Source: an uncultured Prevotellaceae bacterium
GTDB taxonomy: Bacteria; Bacteroidota; Bacteroidia; Bacteroidales; Bacteroidaceae
Reading direction: 5' to 3'
DNA: 64,000 nt
Assembly: GCA_900318115.1 (NCBI GenBank)
Contig: ONJJ01000007.1
Coordinates: 121,726-185,725 of the forward strand
In this document: one piece after another, positions 229 through 8,243 of the stretch
How the letters are laid out: the number at the start of each line of letters is the position of its first letter
How positions within the stretch are numbered: position 1 is the first letter of the stretch
Notes under the pieces: model-generated
The model's database searches: none
What the model was told of the DNA's origin: nothing
What the model saw: the letters and a program-made list of their open reading frames with translations, nothing else
Position numbers and translations under genes: made by a program

Positions 229-256
229 ATCACGGATAATTTTACCAAAATTACTG
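229..256 (-). promoter_or_regulatory. operator of the GH51 promoter (two direct half-sites 21 bp apart)
   Basis: On the minus strand the half-sites are CAGTAAT (256-250) and CCGTGAT (235-229), 21 bp start to start, with TGGTA between them. The second half-site ends 29 bp before the -7 box. Over about 30 bp the site is roughly 26/30 identical to the site at 5689-5718 ahead of the small secreted protein. Direct half-sites two helical turns apart fit an AraC-type DNA-binding dimer, as found in hybrid two-component regulators of carbohydrate loci; the regulator itself is not in the window. Confidence 0.6.
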
Positions 257-292
257 ATTCTGGAGAAAAAGACTGCAGCGAGACGCCATTTT

Positions 293-320
293 CCGTAAAA
301 ATGGTAGATTTATCCGTAAA
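293..320 (+). promoter_or_regulatory. operator of the GH31 promoter (two direct half-sites 21 bp apart)
   Basis: CCGTAAA occurs at 293-299 and again at 314-320, exactly 21 bp apart, with TGGTA (302-306) between them, as in the GH51 and 5.7-kb operators. The second half-site ends 30 bp before the -7 box at 351. The same geometry in three promoters argues for one shared activator. Confidence 0.6.
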
Positions 321-350
321 TCGGTTATGCAGCCCGCATCGATTTTGAGC

Positions 351-358
351 TATCTTTG
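351..358 (+). promoter_or_regulatory. -7 box of the GH31 promoter
   Basis: TATCTTTG matches TAnnTTTG and lies 24 bp before the chosen GH31 ATG. No TTTG is found 20 bp upstream (327-330 is ATGC), again pointing to an activator-dependent promoter. Its position also shows that the GH31 start must be downstream of 358. Confidence 0.65.
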
Positions 359-382
359 CGGCGTCAAAAATATAAATCGATT

Positions 383-3300
383 ATGGTTAGAAAAACTATT
401 CTTTTTGCACTTATGCTTTCTTGCCTGCTCAGCACGAGCGCACAAGATTACTCGCTGACGTCGGGCGGTGTGACGACAGAGGTCACATTCTACTCCCCGC
501 AAATTGTGCGAGTGACAAAATATCAGGTGGCGGATGCACTCGGAAAGTCCGACCCGAAGGTCGTGGTGACGATGACGCCGCAGGCTGTGGCACCGACGTT
601 GTCGGAAGGCAGCAAGGCCGACACGCTGCTGACGGCAAACGTGAAAGTGGTATGCAACAAGCAGACGGGCGTGCTGAGTTTCTACCGCCCCGATGGCACG
701 ACGCTGATCAAGGAGCGTTCGAAGGCGACCTTCACACGACGTACTGCTCACACTATAGACCCTTATGACGTATCGCAGTCTTTCACTCTGGCCAGTGGCG
801 AGGCCATCTATGGCTTCGGGCAGGTGCAGGACGGCAACCTGAATCATCGCAACAAGACCTATACTCACATGGTGCAGAACAACACCTCGGTGTGGATTCC
901 TTTCTTCCACTCGGTGAAGGGCTACGGAATCTACTGGGATTTGTATGGCCCCTGCGACTTCAGCGATAACTCGTCCGGCGGCGCTACCTTCAGGACCGAG
1001 GCCGCCCATGCCGTGGACTACTACGTGCTGGTCGGCGACGAGCATCGTGGCGATGACGTGGTGCGCAGGCTGAGGGAACTGACGGGCAAGGCCACGATGG
1101 TGCCCCTTTGGACCTACGGTTATTTCCAGAGCAAGGAACGCTACCAAAGTGCCATGGAGACGCTGGGGGTGATGCAGAAGTACCGCTCGCTGAAGGTGCC
1201 TATCGACTGCATCGTGCAGGACTGGCAGTACTGGGGCGACAACAATATGTGGAACGCCATGGAGTTCCTGAACCCACAGTTCAAGACCACCTATCCTCAG
1301 ATGATCGATGGCCTGCACGCCGATGGGGCGCATCTGCTCATTTCCTTCTGGGCCAATTTCGGCCCCGACACAAAGCAATACCGGCACTTCAAGGAGCACA
1401 ACCAATTGATGAAGCAGGGAGGCAGCATCATGACCTCCACCTACCCTCCCAACTCGGGTGTGGCTGTCTATAGCCCCTATCAGCAGTCGGCGCGCGACTA
1501 CTACTGGAAATGTCTGTGGGAAGGCGTGGTCAGCAAGGGCGTGGACGCCTACTGGGTGGATTCCTCCGAGCCCGACCACTACCAAGGCGGCGAGGACTGG
1601 GAGCAGACCAACGACTTCGTGGTGCTGAACAAGGGTGGTCAGGACAATGCCACCCTGAACCCGCTCTCGCTGCAGAGCGACCACACCTGGCGCTCGCTGC
1701 GCAACGTGTTCCCGCTGATGCACGCCAGCGGTGTCTACGACGGCCACCGCGCACAGAAAGATGCCCTGACGGAGGCCAAGCGCGTGATGATCATGACACG
1801 CTCGGGTTTCATCGGTATGCAGCGCTACGGCGCCGGCACCTGGAGCGGCGACATCACCGCATCGTGGGAGACACTGGCCAAGCAGATTCCCGCCGCCCTG
1901 AACTACTCGGCCTGCGGCATACCCAGCTGGAACAGCGACATCGGCGGTTTCTTCAACGGAGCCTACGGCGTGCCAGGACAGGACAACAACTACAGCGAGC
2001 TCTACTGCCGCTGGATTCAGTTCGGCGCCTTCTGCACCATCATGCGCAGCCACGGCTCCGGCACCGACCGCGCCATCTACCAGTTCGGCAAGGAAGGCGA
2101 GAGTTACTACGACATCATCAACCGCTACATCCACCTGCGCTACGCCCTCCTGCCTTATATCTACAGCACGGCCCACCAGGTTCACGCCGATGACTACTCC
2201 TTCATGCGCGCCATGGGCATCGCCTATCCGGCAGATCGCACGACCCATGAGCTGAAAGACCAATTCATGTTCGGTCGCGACCTGCTCGTGGCTCCCGTGG
2301 TGCAGTCTCTGGCCACGAAGCGGAGCGTCTATCTGCCCGTGGATGAGGAAGTCGCGAATGGCCAGGCCGTCAGACGCGGCTGGGTGGACTTCTGGAGCGG
2401 CGAGCAGCATGAGGGCGGAAAGAGGGTTTCACGCGAGGTCAGTCTGGCGCTGATGCCCCTCTACGTCCGTCAGGGCACCATCCTCCCCTGGGGGAGCGAC
2501 GTGCAGTACAGCTCACAGAGCAACTGGGACAACCTCGAAATTCGTGTCTATCCAGGCGCCGACGGCTCGTTCACGCTCTATGAGGACGAACGCGACAACT
2601 ACCACTACGAGCAGGGACGGAGCTCGGAAATACCTTTCACGTGGGACGATGCCACGCACACGCTGACCATCGGCCAGCGCCGGGGCGACTTCGACGGGAT
2701 GCTGCAGCAGCGCACCTTCCGCATCGTGCTCGTCGATGCCGAGAAGAGCCTAGGACTGGGACCGAAGGCCTCCGTCCGCTTCAGCCGCGAAGTGACCTAC
2801 GACGGCCAGGAACTCTCCGTCCAGATTGACAACGAGAACCTCGTGGCTCAGGAGAAGGCGGCCGTCAAGAGCATCAGAGTGACACCCGCCAGCGTGAAAC
2901 TATACCTCGGGCAGTCACGCACCCTCTCCATCAAGGCTACCCTCGCCGACGGCACCTCGCAGTTCGTCACCCTCGACGCCCTCTGCACCAGCTCCGACCC
3001 GCAGGTCGCCTACGCCCGCGACGGTATCATTTACGCCGGCCAGAACGAGGGACATGCCGACATCCAGGTCAGCTACACCGACGGCTTCGGCACCACGCAC
3101 AACGCCACCGTCAGCGTCGAGACGGCCATCCCCACAAACCTCTACAGCTGGAAGGCGCTGGAGTGGTACCGCAACCGCGTCAGCGACCGGCTGGCGGAAT
3201 CCGAAATCCGCTACAGCAGCAAGGAAAACACCATCACCATCACCAAGAAAGGTGCACAGAACATCGCACTCCGCTACCGCGAACAGAAATATATGGAACC

Positions 3301-3733
3301 CGGAATGAAATACCTCGTCGCCGTGGCCACGGAGGTCTCGAAGGACAAGGGCGACTCGCAGCTCTGGCACATCAATGGCAAGTGGGTGAATATTCAGAAT
3401 CCGGCCGACGTCCGCACACTGAAGGACGGACGCATCATGGTCTCGTGGAGCATCGACGAGAACAAGGGCTACGAGCTCACCGGAGAGACGGTGTTCGGAC
3501 TAACCTCCACCAACACCCAGGGACGCTCCGTCGTCAGCTACGTCGGTTTCTCCTCCGACCTGAAGAAGACCGAGAAAGCACTCAATGAGGCTGTGGGCAT
3601 TTCCCAGCTGCATACAGAACCGGCTGAGCCGCAGACTATCTATGCCCTCGACGGGACACAACGTCCCCGGCTGGCCCCGGGCATGAACATCGTCTCTGCC
3701 AACGGCCATGTCGCCAAGGTCTTCAAGAAATAA
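383..3733 (+). CDS. secreted GH31 family glycoside hydrolase (alpha-glucosidase/alpha-xylosidase type) with Ig-like and sorting domains
   Basis: The protein is 1116 residues from the ATG at 383; an earlier in-frame ATG at 356 overlaps the promoter and precedes no signal peptide, so it was rejected. After the signal peptide (ends LLSTSAQ) come an N-terminal beta-sandwich (about 20-235), the GH31 TIM barrel (about 240-600) and a C-terminal beta domain with DUF5110 character (to about 830). The nucleophile motif YWVDSSEPD gives Asp about 393, and TWSGDITASW gives the acid/base Asp about 490. A BIG2-like Ig domain (about 833-925), an unassigned beta domain and a short sorting tail ending VAKVFKK follow. 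Family members hydrolyse alpha-linked glucose or xylose. Sharing an operator with a GH51 gene favours a role in xyloglucan or arabinoxylan side-chain removal, but the substrate cannot be read from sequence. Confidence 0.9.
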   Translation: MVRKTILFALMLSCLLSTSAQDYSLTSGGVTTEVTFYSPQIVRVTKYQVADALGKSDPKVVVTMTPQAVAPTLSEGSKADTLLTANVKVVCNKQTGVLSFYRPDGTTLIKERSKATFTRRTAHTIDPYDVSQSFTLASGEAIYGFGQVQDGNLNHRNKTYTHMVQNNTSVWIPFFHSVKGYGIYWDLYGPCDFSDNSSGGATFRTEAAHAVDYYVLVGDEHRGDDVVRRLRELTGKATMVPLWTYGYFQSKERYQSAMETLGVMQKYRSLKVPIDCIVQDWQYWGDNNMWNAMEFLNPQFKTTYPQMIDGLHADGAHLLISFWANFGPDTKQYRHFKEHNQLMKQGGSIMTSTYPPNSGVAVYSPYQQSARDYYWKCLWEGVVSKGVDAYWVDSSEPDHYQGGEDWEQTNDFVVLNKGGQDNATLNPLSLQSDHTWRSLRNVFPLMHASGVYDGHRAQKDALTEAKRVMIMTRSGFIGMQRYGAGTWSGDITASWETLAKQIPAALNYSACGIPSWNSDIGGFFNGAYGVPGQDNNYSELYCRWIQFGAFCTIMRSHGSGTDRAIYQFGKEGESYYDIINRYIHLRYALLPYIYSTAHQVHADDYSFMRAMGIAYPADRTTHELKDQFMFGRDLLVAPVVQSLATKRSVYLPVDEEVANGQAVRRGWVDFWSGEQHEGGKRVSREVSLALMPLYVRQGTILPWGSDVQYSSQSNWDNLEIRVYPGADGSFTLYEDERDNYHYEQGRSSEIPFTWDDATHTLTIGQRRGDFDGMLQQRTFRIVLVDAEKSLGLGPKASVRFSREVTYDGQELSVQIDNENLVAQEKAAVKSIRVTPASVKLYLGQSRTLSIKATLADGTSQFVTLDALCTSSDPQVAYARDGIIYAGQNEGHADIQVSYTDGFGTTHNATVSVETAIPTNLYSWKALEWYRNRVSDRLAESEIRYSSKENTITITKKGAQNIALRYREQKYMEPGMKYLVAVATEVSKDKGDSQLWHINGKWVNIQNPADVRTLKDGRIMVSWSIDENKGYELTGETVFGLTSTNTQGRSVVSYVGFSSDLKKTEKALNEAVGISQLHTEPAEPQTIYALDGTQRPRLAPGMNIVSANGHVAKVFKK

Positions 3734-3776
3734 AAAAGACGAATCATAGAGTATCTTCAAAAGAATAGAACAGAAT

Positions 3777-4919
3777 ATGAAAAAGACTTTTTTGAGCAGA
3801 GTGCTACTGACGTTGACAGGACTGTTAGCACTGGCCTGCAGCAGCGACGATGCCGCACAGGTGAACGCGCAGCCCACCGAAACGACAGGAAAGATGCTGG
3901 TCGCCTACTACAGCTACACGGGCGACTGCCGCAATATCGTCAGTCAGCTGACCACACAGATCAAGGCCGACGTCGTGGAAATCCAGCCCGCAGAGAAGGG
4001 CCTGCGCTACGAGGCCAACGGCTATGCGCTGGGCACACAGCTGCTCAACGCCATCAAGGCTGCTCCCGGCGAGGCCGGCAGCTATCCCGCTATCGACCCC
4101 GTGCAAGCGACACTCGACGACTACCAAAACATCATCATAGTCACCCCGCTGTGGTGGAGCCAGATGGCTGCCATCATGCAGAGCTACCTCTTCCGCTATG
4201 GCCCTCAGATGGCAGGCAAGAGCATCGCCCTCATCGTCTCCAGCGCCAGCAGTGGCATCAGCCAGGTGGTGGCCGACTGCCGACGGTTGGTGCCCGACGC
4301 CACGTGGATGGGCGACGCCCTCTGGATCAACAACAGCAACCGCAGCCGCACGGCCTCGCTGCTGACCGAATGGCTGGCAACCCTGAAATTCCAACCCTCA
4401 GCAGAAACAAAGAAAATGTATATCACCATCGACGGACAGACACAGAGCGCCACGCTGGCCGACACACAGGCCGCCCGCGAACTGGCAGCGAAGCTGGAAG
4501 ACGGCCCCGTCACCGTCTCGCTGAACTCCAGCGGCGGCTTCGAGATCTGGGGGCCTCTGGGCTTCTCGCTGACCACCAGCAACCAACAGATCAACGCCCA
4601 GCCGGGCGACATCATCCTCTACAACGGCAGCAACATCTGCATGATGTACGGCTCGAACTCCTGGAGCTACACGCGCTTGGGGCACATCGACGGCCTCAGC
4701 GAGAGCGAACTGCGCACGTTCCTGAAAGCCGGACAGAGCAACGTCGCCGTAACGCTCTCGCTCTCGCAGGACGCCACGGCCGTGCGCGACCTCCCCGCCA
4801 GCCGGCAGCGCACCGCGTCCTACACCCTCGACGGCCGCCGCAGCCGTTCGATGCATGGCGGCATCACCATCGTGGATGGTCGAAAAACCGTGTTGGCCAC
4901 GACAAGAAAGAATCAATAG
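3777..4919 (+). CDS. flavodoxin / cyclophilin-like fusion lipoprotein
   Basis: A 380-residue lipoprotein: the lipobox LLALACSS puts the acylated Cys near residue 21. Residues about 40-200 form a flavodoxin-like domain: VAYYSYTGDCRNI resembles the FMN phosphate loop and IVTPLWWSQMA the second FMN loop typical of Flavodoxin_4. Residues about 213-330 (from MYITIDGQTQSATL, with GDIILYNGSNICMMYG) resemble the cyclophilin-like fold domain that is often a separate small protein next to such flavodoxins. The end (YTLDGRRS...GGITIVDGRKTVL) resembles the short sorting tails of neighbouring secreted proteins. It begins 43 bp after the GH31 gene on the same strand, so co-transcription is plausible. The substrate is unknown; an envelope redox role is inferred. 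Confidence 0.8.
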   Translation: MKKTFLSRVLLTLTGLLALACSSDDAAQVNAQPTETTGKMLVAYYSYTGDCRNIVSQLTTQIKADVVEIQPAEKGLRYEANGYALGTQLLNAIKAAPGEAGSYPAIDPVQATLDDYQNIIIVTPLWWSQMAAIMQSYLFRYGPQMAGKSIALIVSSASSGISQVVADCRRLVPDATWMGDALWINNSNRSRTASLLTEWLATLKFQPSAETKKMYITIDGQTQSATLADTQAARELAAKLEDGPVTVSLNSSGGFEIWGPLGFSLTTSNQQINAQPGDIILYNGSNICMMYGSNSWSYTRLGHIDGLSESELRTFLKAGQSNVAVTLSLSQDATAVRDLPASRQRTASYTLDGRRSRSMHGGITIVDGRKTVLATTRKNQ

Positions 4920-4951
4920 GAGAAAAGGCGCAAGCCTGCTCCCCGCTATTT

Positions 4952-5090
4952 GCCGTCTCCGTCCCCGCAGGTCTCCTTCTCGCAGTATGCAGCGCGGTCG
5001 ACTCCGTCCGCAGTAACTTCACTCGTTCCACAGGTTACTCCACACGTTGCTTACTCGCAGTCGCAGGCGACTGCTGCGGACGGAGACGGC
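4952..5090 (+). repeat. 139-bp nested inverted repeat downstream of the flavodoxin gene
   Basis: The outer arms GCCGTCTCCGTCC (4952-4964) and GGACGGAGACGGC (5078-5090) are perfectly complementary over 13 bp. Inside, GCAGTCGC/GCGACTGC forms a tight hairpin near 5057-5074 and AGTAAC...GTTACT a further one. A run of eight A follows at about 5097. No coding pattern is visible. It could be a complex terminator, a palindromic repeat element or a processed RNA; the choice is open. The rest of 5091-5340 is low-complexity T-rich sequence with no gene. Confidence 0.5.
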
Positions 5091-5340
5091 CGCACTTAAA
5101 AAAAAGCGAAACGGACATATACTTTCGTTCGTTTGTTTGTTCTTTTATTTGTTTTCTTTCTTCTCTTTCTTTATAAAAGGGGGTATGGGGGGAATGCTTT
5201 CTTTCTCATTCTTTCTTAAAAGGTGTACACGGAGCCCGGAAAAATGCCTCGCAGAACGCAGGACGATGCGGCAGGTGGCGCCATCGTAAAGAGGCATTGT
5301 GCAACGGCCGGCTTCGGAGGAAGCTGGAGGGGGCGGAGAG

Positions 5341-5580
5341 GGTCTTCCTGCACCGTGCCTTGGGCCGTCCTGCACCGTGGCTCGGGTCTTCCTGCACCGT
5401 GGCTCGGGACGCCCTGCACCACGGTACGCAGGGCCAGACACCACGGTACGCAGGGCCAGACACCACGATGTATGCCGCCTCACAGCGTGGTGTATGCCGC
5501 CTCACAGCGTGGTGTGTGCCGCCTCGCAGCGTGGTGAGTGGCACCCCGCAGCGTAGTGTGTGGCACCCCGCCACGAAGAA
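5341..5580 (+). repeat. tandem array with strict 22-bp period (about 11 units)
   Basis: CCTGCACCGTG recurs at 5347, 5369, 5391 and (shortened) 5413. CACCACGG-type cores follow at 5417, 5439 and 5461, and CAGCGTGG-type cores at 5483, 5505, 5527 and 5549. All steps are exactly 22 bp. The unit sequence drifts in blocks while the period is kept. Stops in the reading frames and the absence of a start context argue against coding. Confidence 0.8.
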
Positions 5581-5692
5581 GAAGATTTCCCGGAGACGGA
5601 GGTGCTGTTAAAAAAAGTCGGCGGATACGGTAAAGACGATCGGCGGATGCAGCAAAGACAGTCGGCAAGGAAAAGACACAAATCGTGAGAAT

Positions 5693-5720
5693 CAGTAATT
5701 ATGGTAAAAGATTCCGTAAT
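5693..5720 (+). promoter_or_regulatory. operator of the small-protein/hydrolase/CMD-cupin operon
   Basis: Half-sites CAGTAAT (5693-5699) and CCGTAAT (5714-5720) lie 21 bp apart with TGGTA (5702-5706) between them, ending 30 bp before the -7 box. The wider site (AGAATCAGTAATT, then TGGTAAAA, then TCCGT) is nearly identical to the GH51 operator. Confidence 0.6.
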
Positions 5721-5750
5721 ATGGACAAATGCAGTTTGCGGATTTTTTAC

Positions 5751-5758
5751 TACCTTTG
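5751..5758 (+). promoter_or_regulatory. -7 box of the 5814-8243 operon
   Basis: TACCTTTG is a full match to TAnnTTTG. Position 5727-5730 is AAAT, so no -33 box is present at N20; the operator just upstream probably compensates. The leader to the first ATG is about 50 nt. Confidence 0.65.
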
Positions 5759-5813: not shown

Positions 5814-6014
5814 ATGAAGAAGTGTTTCATTTTCATAGCATTCGCCTTTGTGCTCGCCCTTGCGGCTGCGGCACAAGAGACGATATTCCCTACGAAGTTC
5901 ACGGGGGAAGAGTCCAAGTCCATCATCCGACAATGCAACGAGGCTGCCGCCCGAATGAAGCGCGAACTACAAGGAGATGATATTGAGGGAGAATGCCCGG
6001 AAGTTGATAGCTAA
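5814..6014 (+). CDS. small secreted protein of unknown function
   Basis: A 66-residue protein with a clear signal peptide (MKKCFIFIAFAFVLALAAAA, cleavage near AQE) and a mature part of about 45 residues rich in charged residues (FTGEESKSIIRQCNEAAARMKRE). Two Cys remain in the mature part. It is the first gene after an operator-bearing promoter and lies 28 bp before the hydrolase gene, so it belongs to that operon. It matches no family that I recognise. It could be a real small exported protein or the decayed remnant of a longer gene; the intact signal peptide and good spacing favour the former. Confidence 0.6.
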   Translation: MKKCFIFIAFAFVLALAAAAQETIFPTKFTGEESKSIIRQCNEAAARMKRELQGDDIEGECPEVDS

Positions 6015-6042: not shown

Positions 6043-7143
6043 ATGAAAAGCGTTATAGTAGCGGCAGCTGCGGCCGTCCTCCTGCTCGCAGGCTGCACCC
6101 AGAAAGAATCCAATCAAACCCAAGAAGAGAATATAACTACACTGAATCTGACCCAAGAATGGGACAAGACGTTCCCGAAGAGCGACAAGGTGGAGCACTG
6201 CAAGGTGACCTTCCACAACCGCTATGGTATTGAACTGGCCGCAGACATGTATGTGCCGAAAGCCTCCGATGGCGAGAAGCCCCTCCCCGCCATCGCTGTC
6301 TCCGGCCCCTTCGGAGCCGTGAAGGAGCAGAGCAGCGGCCTCTACGCTCAGCACATGGCAGAACGGGGCTTCGTGACCCTGGCCTTCGACCCCTCGTTTA
6401 CCGGCGAGAGTGGCGGTGAGCCACGCCGCATGGCATCGCCCGATATCAACACGGAGGACTTCCTGGCTGCCGTGGACTTCCTGAGCAACCACGAACTGGT
6501 GAACCCCGAGCGCATCGGCATCATCGGCATCTGCGGATTCGGCGGAATGGCTGTGAACGCTGCTGCCCTGGACCCGCGCATCAAAGCCACCGTGGCCTCT
6601 ACGATGTACGATATGAGTAAGGTGAATGTGGAGGGCTACTTCCAGAGCGAGGACACGCCCGCCCAGCGACAGGAGAAGCGCCGGGCCCTTGCTGCCCAGC
6701 GCACACGCGACTACAAGGCCGGCGAATACCAGCGCGCCGGAGGGGTCATTGACCCCCTGCCCGAGGACGCTCCTTGGTTTGTCAAGGACTATCACGCCTA
6801 CTACAAGACTCCGCGTGGCTACCACGAGCGCAGCGGCAACAGCACCGACGGATGGAACGTCATCGGCTGTCAGTCGTTCTTGAACCAGCCTCTGCTCTGC
6901 TGGGCCCACGAAATCGAGAATCCGGTGCTGCTCATCCATGGCGAAAAAGCTCATTCGCGCTACTTCAGCGAGTATGCCTTCGAACGCATGACAGGAACTA
7001 AGGTCGAAGGCGAGAGCAAGGTCGTCGGGAACAAGGAACTCCTCATCATCCCCGGGGCAACGCACGTGGACCTCTACGACGACGAGGCTGGAGTGATTCC
7101 CTACGACAAGATAGAGGCTTTCTTCACCGCGAATCTGAAATAA
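6043..7143 (+). CDS. alpha/beta hydrolase lipoprotein (dienelactone hydrolase-like)
   Basis: A 366-residue lipoprotein with lipobox VLLLAGC (acylated Cys about 18). The mature part is an alpha/beta hydrolase: a strand and oxyanion region near GPFGAVKEQSSG, the nucleophile-elbow region IGIIGICGFGGMA (about 160-170), an Asp/Asn segment and a late His in IIPGATHVDLYDD. The elbow has Cys where most esterases have Ser, as in dienelactone hydrolases, but with GFGG spacing, so the catalytic residue is not certain. It ends 5 bp before the CMD-cupin gene, strongly suggesting translation from one transcript. Relatives are annotated as hydrolases or putative acetyl esterases. Co-regulation with GH51 and GH31 would fit a deacylating role, which is inference. 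Confidence 0.8.
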   Translation: MKSVIVAAAAAVLLLAGCTQKESNQTQEENITTLNLTQEWDKTFPKSDKVEHCKVTFHNRYGIELAADMYVPKASDGEKPLPAIAVSGPFGAVKEQSSGLYAQHMAERGFVTLAFDPSFTGESGGEPRRMASPDINTEDFLAAVDFLSNHELVNPERIGIIGICGFGGMAVNAAALDPRIKATVASTMYDMSKVNVEGYFQSEDTPAQRQEKRRALAAQRTRDYKAGEYQRAGGVIDPLPEDAPWFVKDYHAYYKTPRGYHERSGNSTDGWNVIGCQSFLNQPLLCWAHEIENPVLLIHGEKAHSRYFSEYAFERMTGTKVEGESKVVGNKELLIIPGATHVDLYDDEAGVIPYDKIEAFFTANLK

Positions 7144-7148
7144 TAACT

Positions 7149-8243
7149 ATGAGACGTATTCATCGTGGGGTGCTGGCAGCCGTTTTGCTGTCGGCCTCCA
7201 TGCATCTTTCTGCACAACTGACTATGGAACTGACAGACAGGCAACAGGCTCTCGTGGCCATCGCCGCCTACGAGGCCAAGGGTGATATCGAGGCCCTGAA
7301 GAACGAAGTGAACAATGGGTTTGAGGCAGGACTCAGCGTGAGTCAGATTAAGGAAGCCCTCTCACACCTGTATGCTTACACGGGCTTTCCCCGCTCGCTG
7401 AATGCACTGGGCGCCCTCCAACAGGTGATCCGGCAGCGGCAGGAGGCCGGACTGACAACAGAAGAGGGGCGCGAGGCCGACCCGCTGCCCGCCGATTACG
7501 ACGCCCTCAGACGTGGCACAGAAGTGCAGACACAACTCTGTGGCGGACAGCCCTTCAACTACACCTTCGCTCCGCAGACGGACTACTACCTGAAAGCACA
7601 CCTCTTCGGCGACATCTTCGCGCGCAACAACCTCACGTTCGCCGAGCGCGAGATCGTCACCGTCTCCGCTATTTCCGCGCTGGAGGGCTGCGAACCGCAG
7701 CTGAAGGCACACGTCAGCGGCGCACGGAATTTGGGTGTGACCGACGCCCAACTCCACGAACTGCCCGCAGTGCTGCGCAAACGTGTCGGCGAGGCAGAAG
7801 CCACGCGCTGTCAGAAGGCTGTGGCAAGCGTGTTCGGCGAGGAGTATCAGGCCGTGGACACCGTGGATTTCAGCGTCTGGCCGCGGGGCGTGGAGAACCC
7901 CTATGGCAAGTACTTCACCGGTCAGAGCTACCTGGCTGAGATGGGGGCCGTGACGAACGTTACTTTCGAACCTGGTTGCCGCAACAACTGGCACGTGCAC
8001 CACAAGCAGGTGCAGGTGCTTATCTGCGTGGCAGGACGGGGCTGGTACCAGGAATGGGGCAAGCCTGCTCAGCAGATGACACCCGGAACGGTGATTGCCA
8101 TTCCCGCAGAGGTTAAGCACTGGCACGGAGCCGCTCGCGATTCGTGGTTCCAGCACCTGACCTACCACAAAGACGTACAAGAGGGGGCCAGCAACGAATG
8201 GCTGGAACCGGTGGACGACGAGTGGTACGGAAAACTGGATTGA
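7149..8243 (+). CDS. secreted carboxymuconolactone decarboxylase-cupin fusion protein
   Basis: A 364-residue protein with a signal peptide ending SMHLSAQ. Residues about 25-110 and 140-225 are two helical CMD/AhpD-like segments (LVAIAAYEAKGD; FAEREIVTVSAISALEGCEPQLKAH). Residues about 250-350 form a cupin with the metal-ligand pattern WHVHHKQVQVL...HWHGAARDSWF. The second CMD segment has one Cys (EGCEPQL) rather than the CxxC of AhpD peroxidase partners, so redox activity is doubtful. It is the last gene of the three-gene operon and is followed by a strong bidirectional terminator. Such fusions are widespread in Bacteroidota next to alpha/beta hydrolases; the substrate is unknown. Confidence 0.85.
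   Translation: MRRIHRGVLAAVLLSASMHLSAQLTMELTDRQQALVAIAAYEAKGDIEALKNEVNNGFEAGLSVSQIKEALSHLYAYTGFPRSLNALGALQQVIRQRQEAGLTTEEGREADPLPADYDALRRGTEVQTQLCGGQPFNYTFAPQTDYYLKAHLFGDIFARNNLTFAEREIVTVSAISALEGCEPQLKAHVSGARNLGVTDAQLHELPAVLRKRVGEAEATRCQKAVASVFGEEYQAVDTVDFSVWPRGVENPYGKYFTGQSYLAEMGAVTNVTFEPGCRNNWHVHHKQVQVLICVAGRGWYQEWGKPAQQMTPGTVIAIPAEVKHWHGAARDSWFQHLTYHKDVQEGASNEWLEPVDDEWYGKLD

Follow-up and report, generated by a model that had tools for sequence, protein, structure and literature searches.

A direct-repeat operator shared by glycosidase and CMD-cupin promoters of an uncultured Prevotellaceae bacterium, and its likely reading by a one-component AraC-type activator

The window analysed here is a stretch of 64,000 nucleotides from an uncultured Prevotellaceae bacterium (GenBank GCA_900318115.1, contig ONJJ01000007.1), corresponding to G000:C40:121726-185725, where G000 is the source genome and C40 its contig. 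Close to the left end of the window, three promoters share an operator of two directly repeated boxes placed ahead of a TAnnTTTG -7 box. This operator is very probably the target of a one-component AraC-family regulator of 300 aa, whose gene is on the minus strand some 6 kb to the left of the window, at C40:114685-115584 (L005:7960-8859). L005 is the stretch to the left of the window, which it overlaps by 5 kb; the two amount to 84 kb, with this overlap included. The G000 assembly amounts to 3.33 Mb in 74 contigs and is 87% complete, and contig C40 terminates at the window's end.

The first promoter lies on the minus strand. Its two-box operator occupies 222-258, with CCGTGAT as second box, and is followed by a -7 box TACCTTTG at 192-199, N30 (30 bases) past the second CMGTRA. 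The first codons of a GH51 alpha-L-arabinofuranosidase occupy 1-156, with a start codon chosen by eye past the -7 box; nearly all of this gene lies left of the window (L005:11071-15222, minus). On the plus strand, the GH31-flavodoxin promoter has its operator at 291-327 and, at N31, a -7 box TATCTTTG at 351-358. It precedes a GH31 glycosidase at 383-3733 (ATG 383 placed by eye) and, after a gap of 43 bases, a second gene missed in the initial annotation, which by Pfam encodes a flavodoxin-cyclophilin-like protein (3777-4919, plus). The third promoter, also on the plus strand, is that of the 5.7-kb operon, with its operator at 5691-5727 and a -7 box TACCTTTG at 5751-5758, again at N31. This operon encodes a small secreted-looking protein of 66 aa (5814-6014, from translation), an alpha/beta hydrolase of the S15/AXE1/DLH-like type (6043-7143) and a CMD-cupin fusion protein (7149-8243). 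The earlier calls of GH51, GH31, hydrolase and CMD-cupin were all borne out by Pfam. With the genes to the left included, the order is AraC (minus), GH39-like (plus), truncated GH27-like and GH51 (minus), GH31-flavodoxin (plus) and the 5.7-kb operon. The regulon as known in G000 is a single cluster of about 15 kb, running from AraC to CMD/cupin.

The operator and its geometry were computed directly. The initial annotation had placed paired C[AC]GTAAW half-sites 21 bp apart at 229-256 (minus, CAGTAATTTTGGTAAAATTATCCGTGAT), 293-320 (plus, CCGTAAAAATGGTAGATTTATCCGTAAA) and 5693-5720 (plus, CAGTAATTATGGTAAAAGATTCCGTAAT), and all three were found there. The pattern CMGTAAW-N14-CMGTAAW gave two exact matches in the window and one with a single mismatch; in 60 first-order Markov simulations, the mean number of matches was 0.00 for exact ones and 0.083 when up to one mismatch was allowed. 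The pattern is thus much more frequent in the window than chance would give. In 3/3 promoters TGGTA is found between the two half-sites, as had been stated. The distance of 29-30 bp to TAnnTTTG is right when counted from the 7-mer; counted from the end of the CMGTAA 6-mer it is 30-31 (N30 for GH51, N31 for the other two). Identity between the GH51 and 5.7-kb sites, given as 26/30, was found to be 25/30 (27/32) positions. The reported absence of a -33 element was confirmed for all three promoters: no TTG or TTTG occurs near N20 before the -7 box, the spacers observed being 0, 3 and 12. The window has two exact copies of TTTG-N19..21-TAnnTTTG.

To describe the operator more fully, a matrix was derived from 35 distinct N31 sites, taken from 42 motif-bearing loci outside G000. 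It left out duplicate copies of a 27-mer, sites with a different spacing and those lying too close to a contig end, and it contained none of the G000 sites. The full box reads ATCMGTAAwnnnGGTw, longer than the half-site first described, and is repeated after 21 bp, with the second copy ending in GTnTA (T in 31/35 and A in 28/35 training sites). GGT, which lay outside the search pattern, is conserved in 30, 26 and 32 of the 35 sites. The TTTG of the -7 box is mostly followed by CA (31 and 27 of 35). The second box reaches to roughly the position expected of a -33 TTTG, where no TTTG consensus is visible. On both strands of the window and L005, the matrix ranked the GH31 (52.8), GH51 (48.3) and 5.7-kb (48.0) operators highest. 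Next came a fourth, weaker operator at L005:8929 (C40:115654), CGGTGA-N15-CGGTAA-N31-TAATTTTG, with a score of 24.7. This site, missed in the initial annotation, is outside the window, between the AraC and GH39-like genes, and adjoins the regulator gene. Shifted readings of the listed sites aside, remaining scores were at most 7.7. Among the other loci, L021 has the same change in both copies, each box reading CCGCAA. In some loci a second operator was seen about 60 bp upstream, or divergent operators stand back to back (L069:1439/1501; L128:1627/1566, minus; L119; L120); such arrangements may reflect auto-regulation or stacked binding.

Across G000, the GH31 and 5.7-kb sites were the only hits both of the strict pattern and of a longer N31 pattern that tolerated up to 3 mismatches; a 28-mer with the same tolerance picked up the 5.7-kb and GH51 sites alone. 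The initial annotation was to be refuted by a lack of genome-wide enrichment before glycan genes, and taken to the letter this is what strict patterns gave: no further site appeared in the rest of this 87% complete genome, where the known sites form one cluster. Since the fourth site in L005 is visible only by matrix, other weak G000 sites may have been missed.

Conservation beyond G000 was read directly from genomes of the genus and family, using CMGTAA-N15-CMGTAA-N25..38-TANNTTTG with the backward pattern as control. In the genus (139 genomes) there were 14 matches in 12 genomes versus 4 for the control, 11/14 at N31. In the family (399 genomes) there were 134 matches in 81 genomes and 15/30 genera, versus 9. 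Spacings in the family set, counted by eye, were N31 in 122 of the 134, N30 in 9, N32 in 1 and longer in 2, with 14 spacings allowed. Strict sites never exceeded 5 per family genome, and 318/399 genomes had none. A downstream open reading frame (ORF) was present in 41/42 motif loci, with the chosen start 15-51 bases past the -7 box in 36/41. The genes behind or beside the motif elsewhere encode iron alcohol dehydrogenase (directly behind the operator in L080), zinc alcohol dehydrogenase, aldo/keto reductase, flavodoxin, flavin reductase, AraC of about 300 aa, CMD, cupin, SDR, ABM, amidohydrolase and DUF362 proteins. Family-wide, the operator stands mainly before oxidoreductases and related enzymes. 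The description 'carbohydrate regulon' is too narrow. As an aside, further ORFs that come first after the motif, in loci of other genera (L113, L128, L136, L118, L116, L127, L119, L131, L121, L135), resemble by eye a DXS-type synthase, a MATE-type transporter, a RibD/DHFR-like reductase and a DUF3737-like protein, with a small ORF of a different kind among them.

The regulator came from this wider set. The motif-linked AraC of locus L083 has a full-length, 66% identical match in G000 at C40:114706-115602 (minus), 6 kb from GH51, while 11 other G000 matches are 25-37% identical. The 300-aa reading frame is open in G000. Its AraC-type DNA-binding domain matches HTH_18 (PF12833, E 3.1e-18, residues 236-312 of a 319-aa reading), and at E 0.001 Pfam gave AraC-type matches only, with no kinase or receiver. 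Linkage of this protein clade to the operator was counted in both directions. Starting from the protein, an operator (score at least 15) was present in 28/30 regulator loci of the family, G000's own (L142) included, against 2/30 with the reversed matrix, 0/24 GH31 loci and 0/11 loci of other G000 AraC-type proteins. In a larger set gathered without the motif, 75/80 regulator loci had an operator of score at least 20, although at least 2 of the 80 (L229, L241) are apparently contigs that also supplied training sites. The set held 94 sites, all at N31, and the reversed matrix gave 0; 3 of the 5 site-less loci (L239, L251, L258) hold fewer than 350 bases before the regulator. Starting from the motif, a clade AraC was found in 14/42 motif loci versus 0/45 control loci.

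Within the 80 loci, a divergent operator lies within 400 bp of the AraC start in 62. An aldo/keto reductase of at least 70% identity is present in 59, and either this or an amidohydrolase homologue of at least 60% in 65. GH51-like matches occur in 3 (30-43% identity) and GH31 matches in 0. The sources are mainly rumen Prevotella, Prevotellaceae and Bacteroidales, and include Prevotella sp. ne3005 and Xylanibacter ruminicola SIG140. In an alignment that ignored row L153_rel (wrong reading frame), seven motif-linked AraC proteins shared the first recognition helix NYFGD, which is absent from seven other G000 AraC-type proteins; variants among motif-linked AraC were one NYFSN and one partial AYFND. 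The AraC of L087 was considered as a clade member and dropped after alignment, having other recognition helices; it is excluded from the 14/42 count.

The L184 orthologue was modelled with 46 sequences (mean pLDDT 82), giving an N-terminal sensor part rich in strands and an AraC DNA-binding part. The model matched ToxT, Rns and CsvR, with the RhaR and AraC sensor domains lower; the overall TM of about 0.3 denotes a match to parts. Solved structures and Foldseek returned only generic AraC-type relatives, and NCBIfam only weak, below-cutoff names for the regulator. Across 46 orthologues, two cysteines never vary, Cys75 of the sensor part and Cys218 of the DNA-binding part, and Cys37 is almost invariant; by sequence, redox or electrophile sensing through conserved cysteines is possible.

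These data argue that the three sites are very likely operators of this one activator, and that CMD-cupin, hydrolase and glycosidases are probably co-regulated by it, as a redox-type AraC activator. Of the initial annotation, the shared operator and the local regulon are thereby upheld, and so is the idea of an AraC-type protein binding direct repeats two helical turns apart. Its link between CMD-cupin and hydrolase on one side and glycosidases on the other has support from the operator that they share in G000 and, in part, from relatives. Two AraC subunits would sit on the two boxes, on the same helix face, with CMGTAA and GGT as the probable contacts of the two helix-turn-helix units within one AraC DNA-binding domain. 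The downstream box ends near the -33 position, where the bound activator could replace the missing TTTG and recruit RNA polymerase to TAnnTTTG. From this position we infer class II-like activation rather than repression, with a ligand-bound dimer as the most likely form at the promoter.

Relatives of the window genes give a graded picture. GH51 orthologues at 84-87% identity have the operator in 4/4, all with GTGA in the second box, so this variant is itself kept, and the boxes of the site are conserved base by base across five species. One relative, G103, outside the first orthologue sample, has the GH31 operator. It carries the same divergent GH51/GH31 pair, both with operators (44.4 and 42.6). 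An aldo/keto reductase comes after its GH31 (91%), and the contig also has a clade AraC. The regulator site of G103 also has TCGGTAA as second box. Strong sites lie between AraC and GH39, the arrangement of G000, in G077 (42.4) and G048 (35.9), and a flavodoxin-cyclophilin homologue in G077, 68% identical, has its own operator. A conserved carbohydrate regulon had also been sought from GH31 orthologues; it failed in 5/5, followed by the one positive in G103. Together these cases imply that a small group of relatives has the glycosidase part in common, the redox part being widespread. Very probably, the glycosidases are a lineage-specific recruitment into a mainly redox-type AraC regulon.

Several observations weigh against assigning the window sites to this regulator. 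None of 3 GH51 orthologues at 73-75% identity had a site scoring at least 20 (19.5 in G048), the operator was found in 0/5 GH31 orthologues of the first sample, and only 4/29 other CMD-cupin-like loci had a site within 1.5-kb flanks. The operator next to the G000 regulator gene is a weak one, and a search without a positive control found in G000 no aldo/keto reductase, the enzyme usually encoded divergently from the regulator. At E 1e-20, no clade regulator was detected in G043 (97% complete), G046 and G063, which have the GH51 operator, or in G090, which has a site before a cupin gene. The AraC of L087 adjoins a site yet has other recognition helices. Finally, 28/42 motif loci have no clade AraC in the locus, so that distant regulation or another AraC must be assumed there.

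Some of these points would be expected if the AraC clade reads the operator elsewhere and the glycosidase sites of G000 were relics, or were read by a different AraC-type protein, with co-regulation of CMD-cupin and glycosidases lost. The three genomes that keep the GH51 operator with no detectable clade regulator, the weak regulator-side site and the aldo/keto reductase not found in G000 are in line with this. Against it, the scores of the three window sites are no lower than those of sites in other genomes, the GH51 boxes are conserved in five species and the regulator frame is open. We regard this reading as very unlikely.

The sites might instead belong to a hybrid two-component system (HTCS) sensing an oligosaccharide derived from arabinan, arabinoxylan or xyloglucan, the type of regulator that the initial annotation had proposed. 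HTCS of B. thetaiotaomicron share with the system here an AraC-type DNA-binding domain and direct repeats, which average 21 bp (PMC3878776). Of the genes directly behind the three operators, two encode glycosidases, and AraC-type ORFs of HTCS size exist in G000 (L106, a 1407-aa open frame). The spacing is no pointer to HTCS, because 21-bp direct repeats are also described for the one-component AraC regulator RhaR of Bacteroides (PMC3870299). Spacing does not discriminate between the two; gene linkage does, and it indicates a one-component AraC. HTCS fuse sensor, kinase, receiver and AraC domains, whereas the regulator here is 300 aa with AraC-type matches only. It is the only one of 12 G000 AraC-type matches on C40, where no HTCS was found (a very divergent one could escape, and G000 is 87% complete), and its relatives adjoin the same operator. 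The loci of the 11 other G000 AraC-type proteins have no operator, and through the family the motif tracks the one-component clade. An HTCS at these sites is therefore very unlikely. That boxes and TAnnTTTG form a general promoter element, such as one for a sigma-factor variant, rather than one regulator's operator, would suit the rigid N31 distance and the 28/42 loci with no nearby clade AraC, and is extremely unlikely given at most 5 strict sites per genome, none in 318/399, and strong linkage to one AraC clade in both directions.

The one-component activator favoured here has partial counterparts in known systems. Like RhaR, it would be a one-component AraC activator in the same bacterial family. 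In PMC3870299, the RhaR motif is described as unique to RhaR, whose targets are rhamnose genes, whereas those here are mainly oxidoreductases and some glycosidases. Among the best matches in open-licence literature, no description of this regulon was recognised; in their available parts, PMC10434189 concerns iron and PMC11253607 HTCS interdomain control, and neither describes this operator. In relatives, the AraC gene has an aldo/keto reductase or an iron alcohol dehydrogenase gene as a neighbour, and in this respect the system may resemble YqhC; in G000 itself no such aldo/keto reductase was found. YqhC of E. coli is an AraC-type activator of yqhD and dkgA in the aldehyde response, and its regulon is not known to include glycosidases.

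The redox targets suggest as inducer a small molecule such as a reactive carbonyl or a phenolic compound. The mix of exo-glycosidase and redox functions allows the speculation that plant glycosides are used whose aglycone needs handling. In a more detailed version, which we hold to be doubtful, an AraC regulon spread across the Bacteroidaceae would in this lineage link sugar removal to the handling of what remains. GH51, GH31, GH27 and GH39 enzymes would strip plant glycosides, for instance phenolic or flavonoid ones. The co-induced flavodoxin, CMD-cupin and hydrolase, with the aldo/keto reductase and amidohydrolase of relatives, would transform or detoxify the aglycone or carbonyl, and the aglycone rather than the sugar would induce, perhaps via Cys75.

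For many poorly understood oxidoreductase operons of the Bacteroidaceae, these results supply an operator, a promoter geometry and a candidate regulator. The placing of CMD-cupin beside glycosidases moves from a guess to a testable regulon. The strict 21-bp and N31 spacings also offer a clean case for an AraC activator that would replace the Bacteroidetes -33 element.

Two further features of the locus were noted. The truncated GH27-like gene after GH51 (L005:10420-11064) encodes 214 aa, compared with 849 aa in the relative L079, and the convergent GH39-like gene abuts it. This suggests a rearrangement or an assembly break. At 5240-5600 of the window, before the 5.7-kb promoter, GC-rich short repeats around GCACCGTGG and CAGCGTGGTG were seen by eye.

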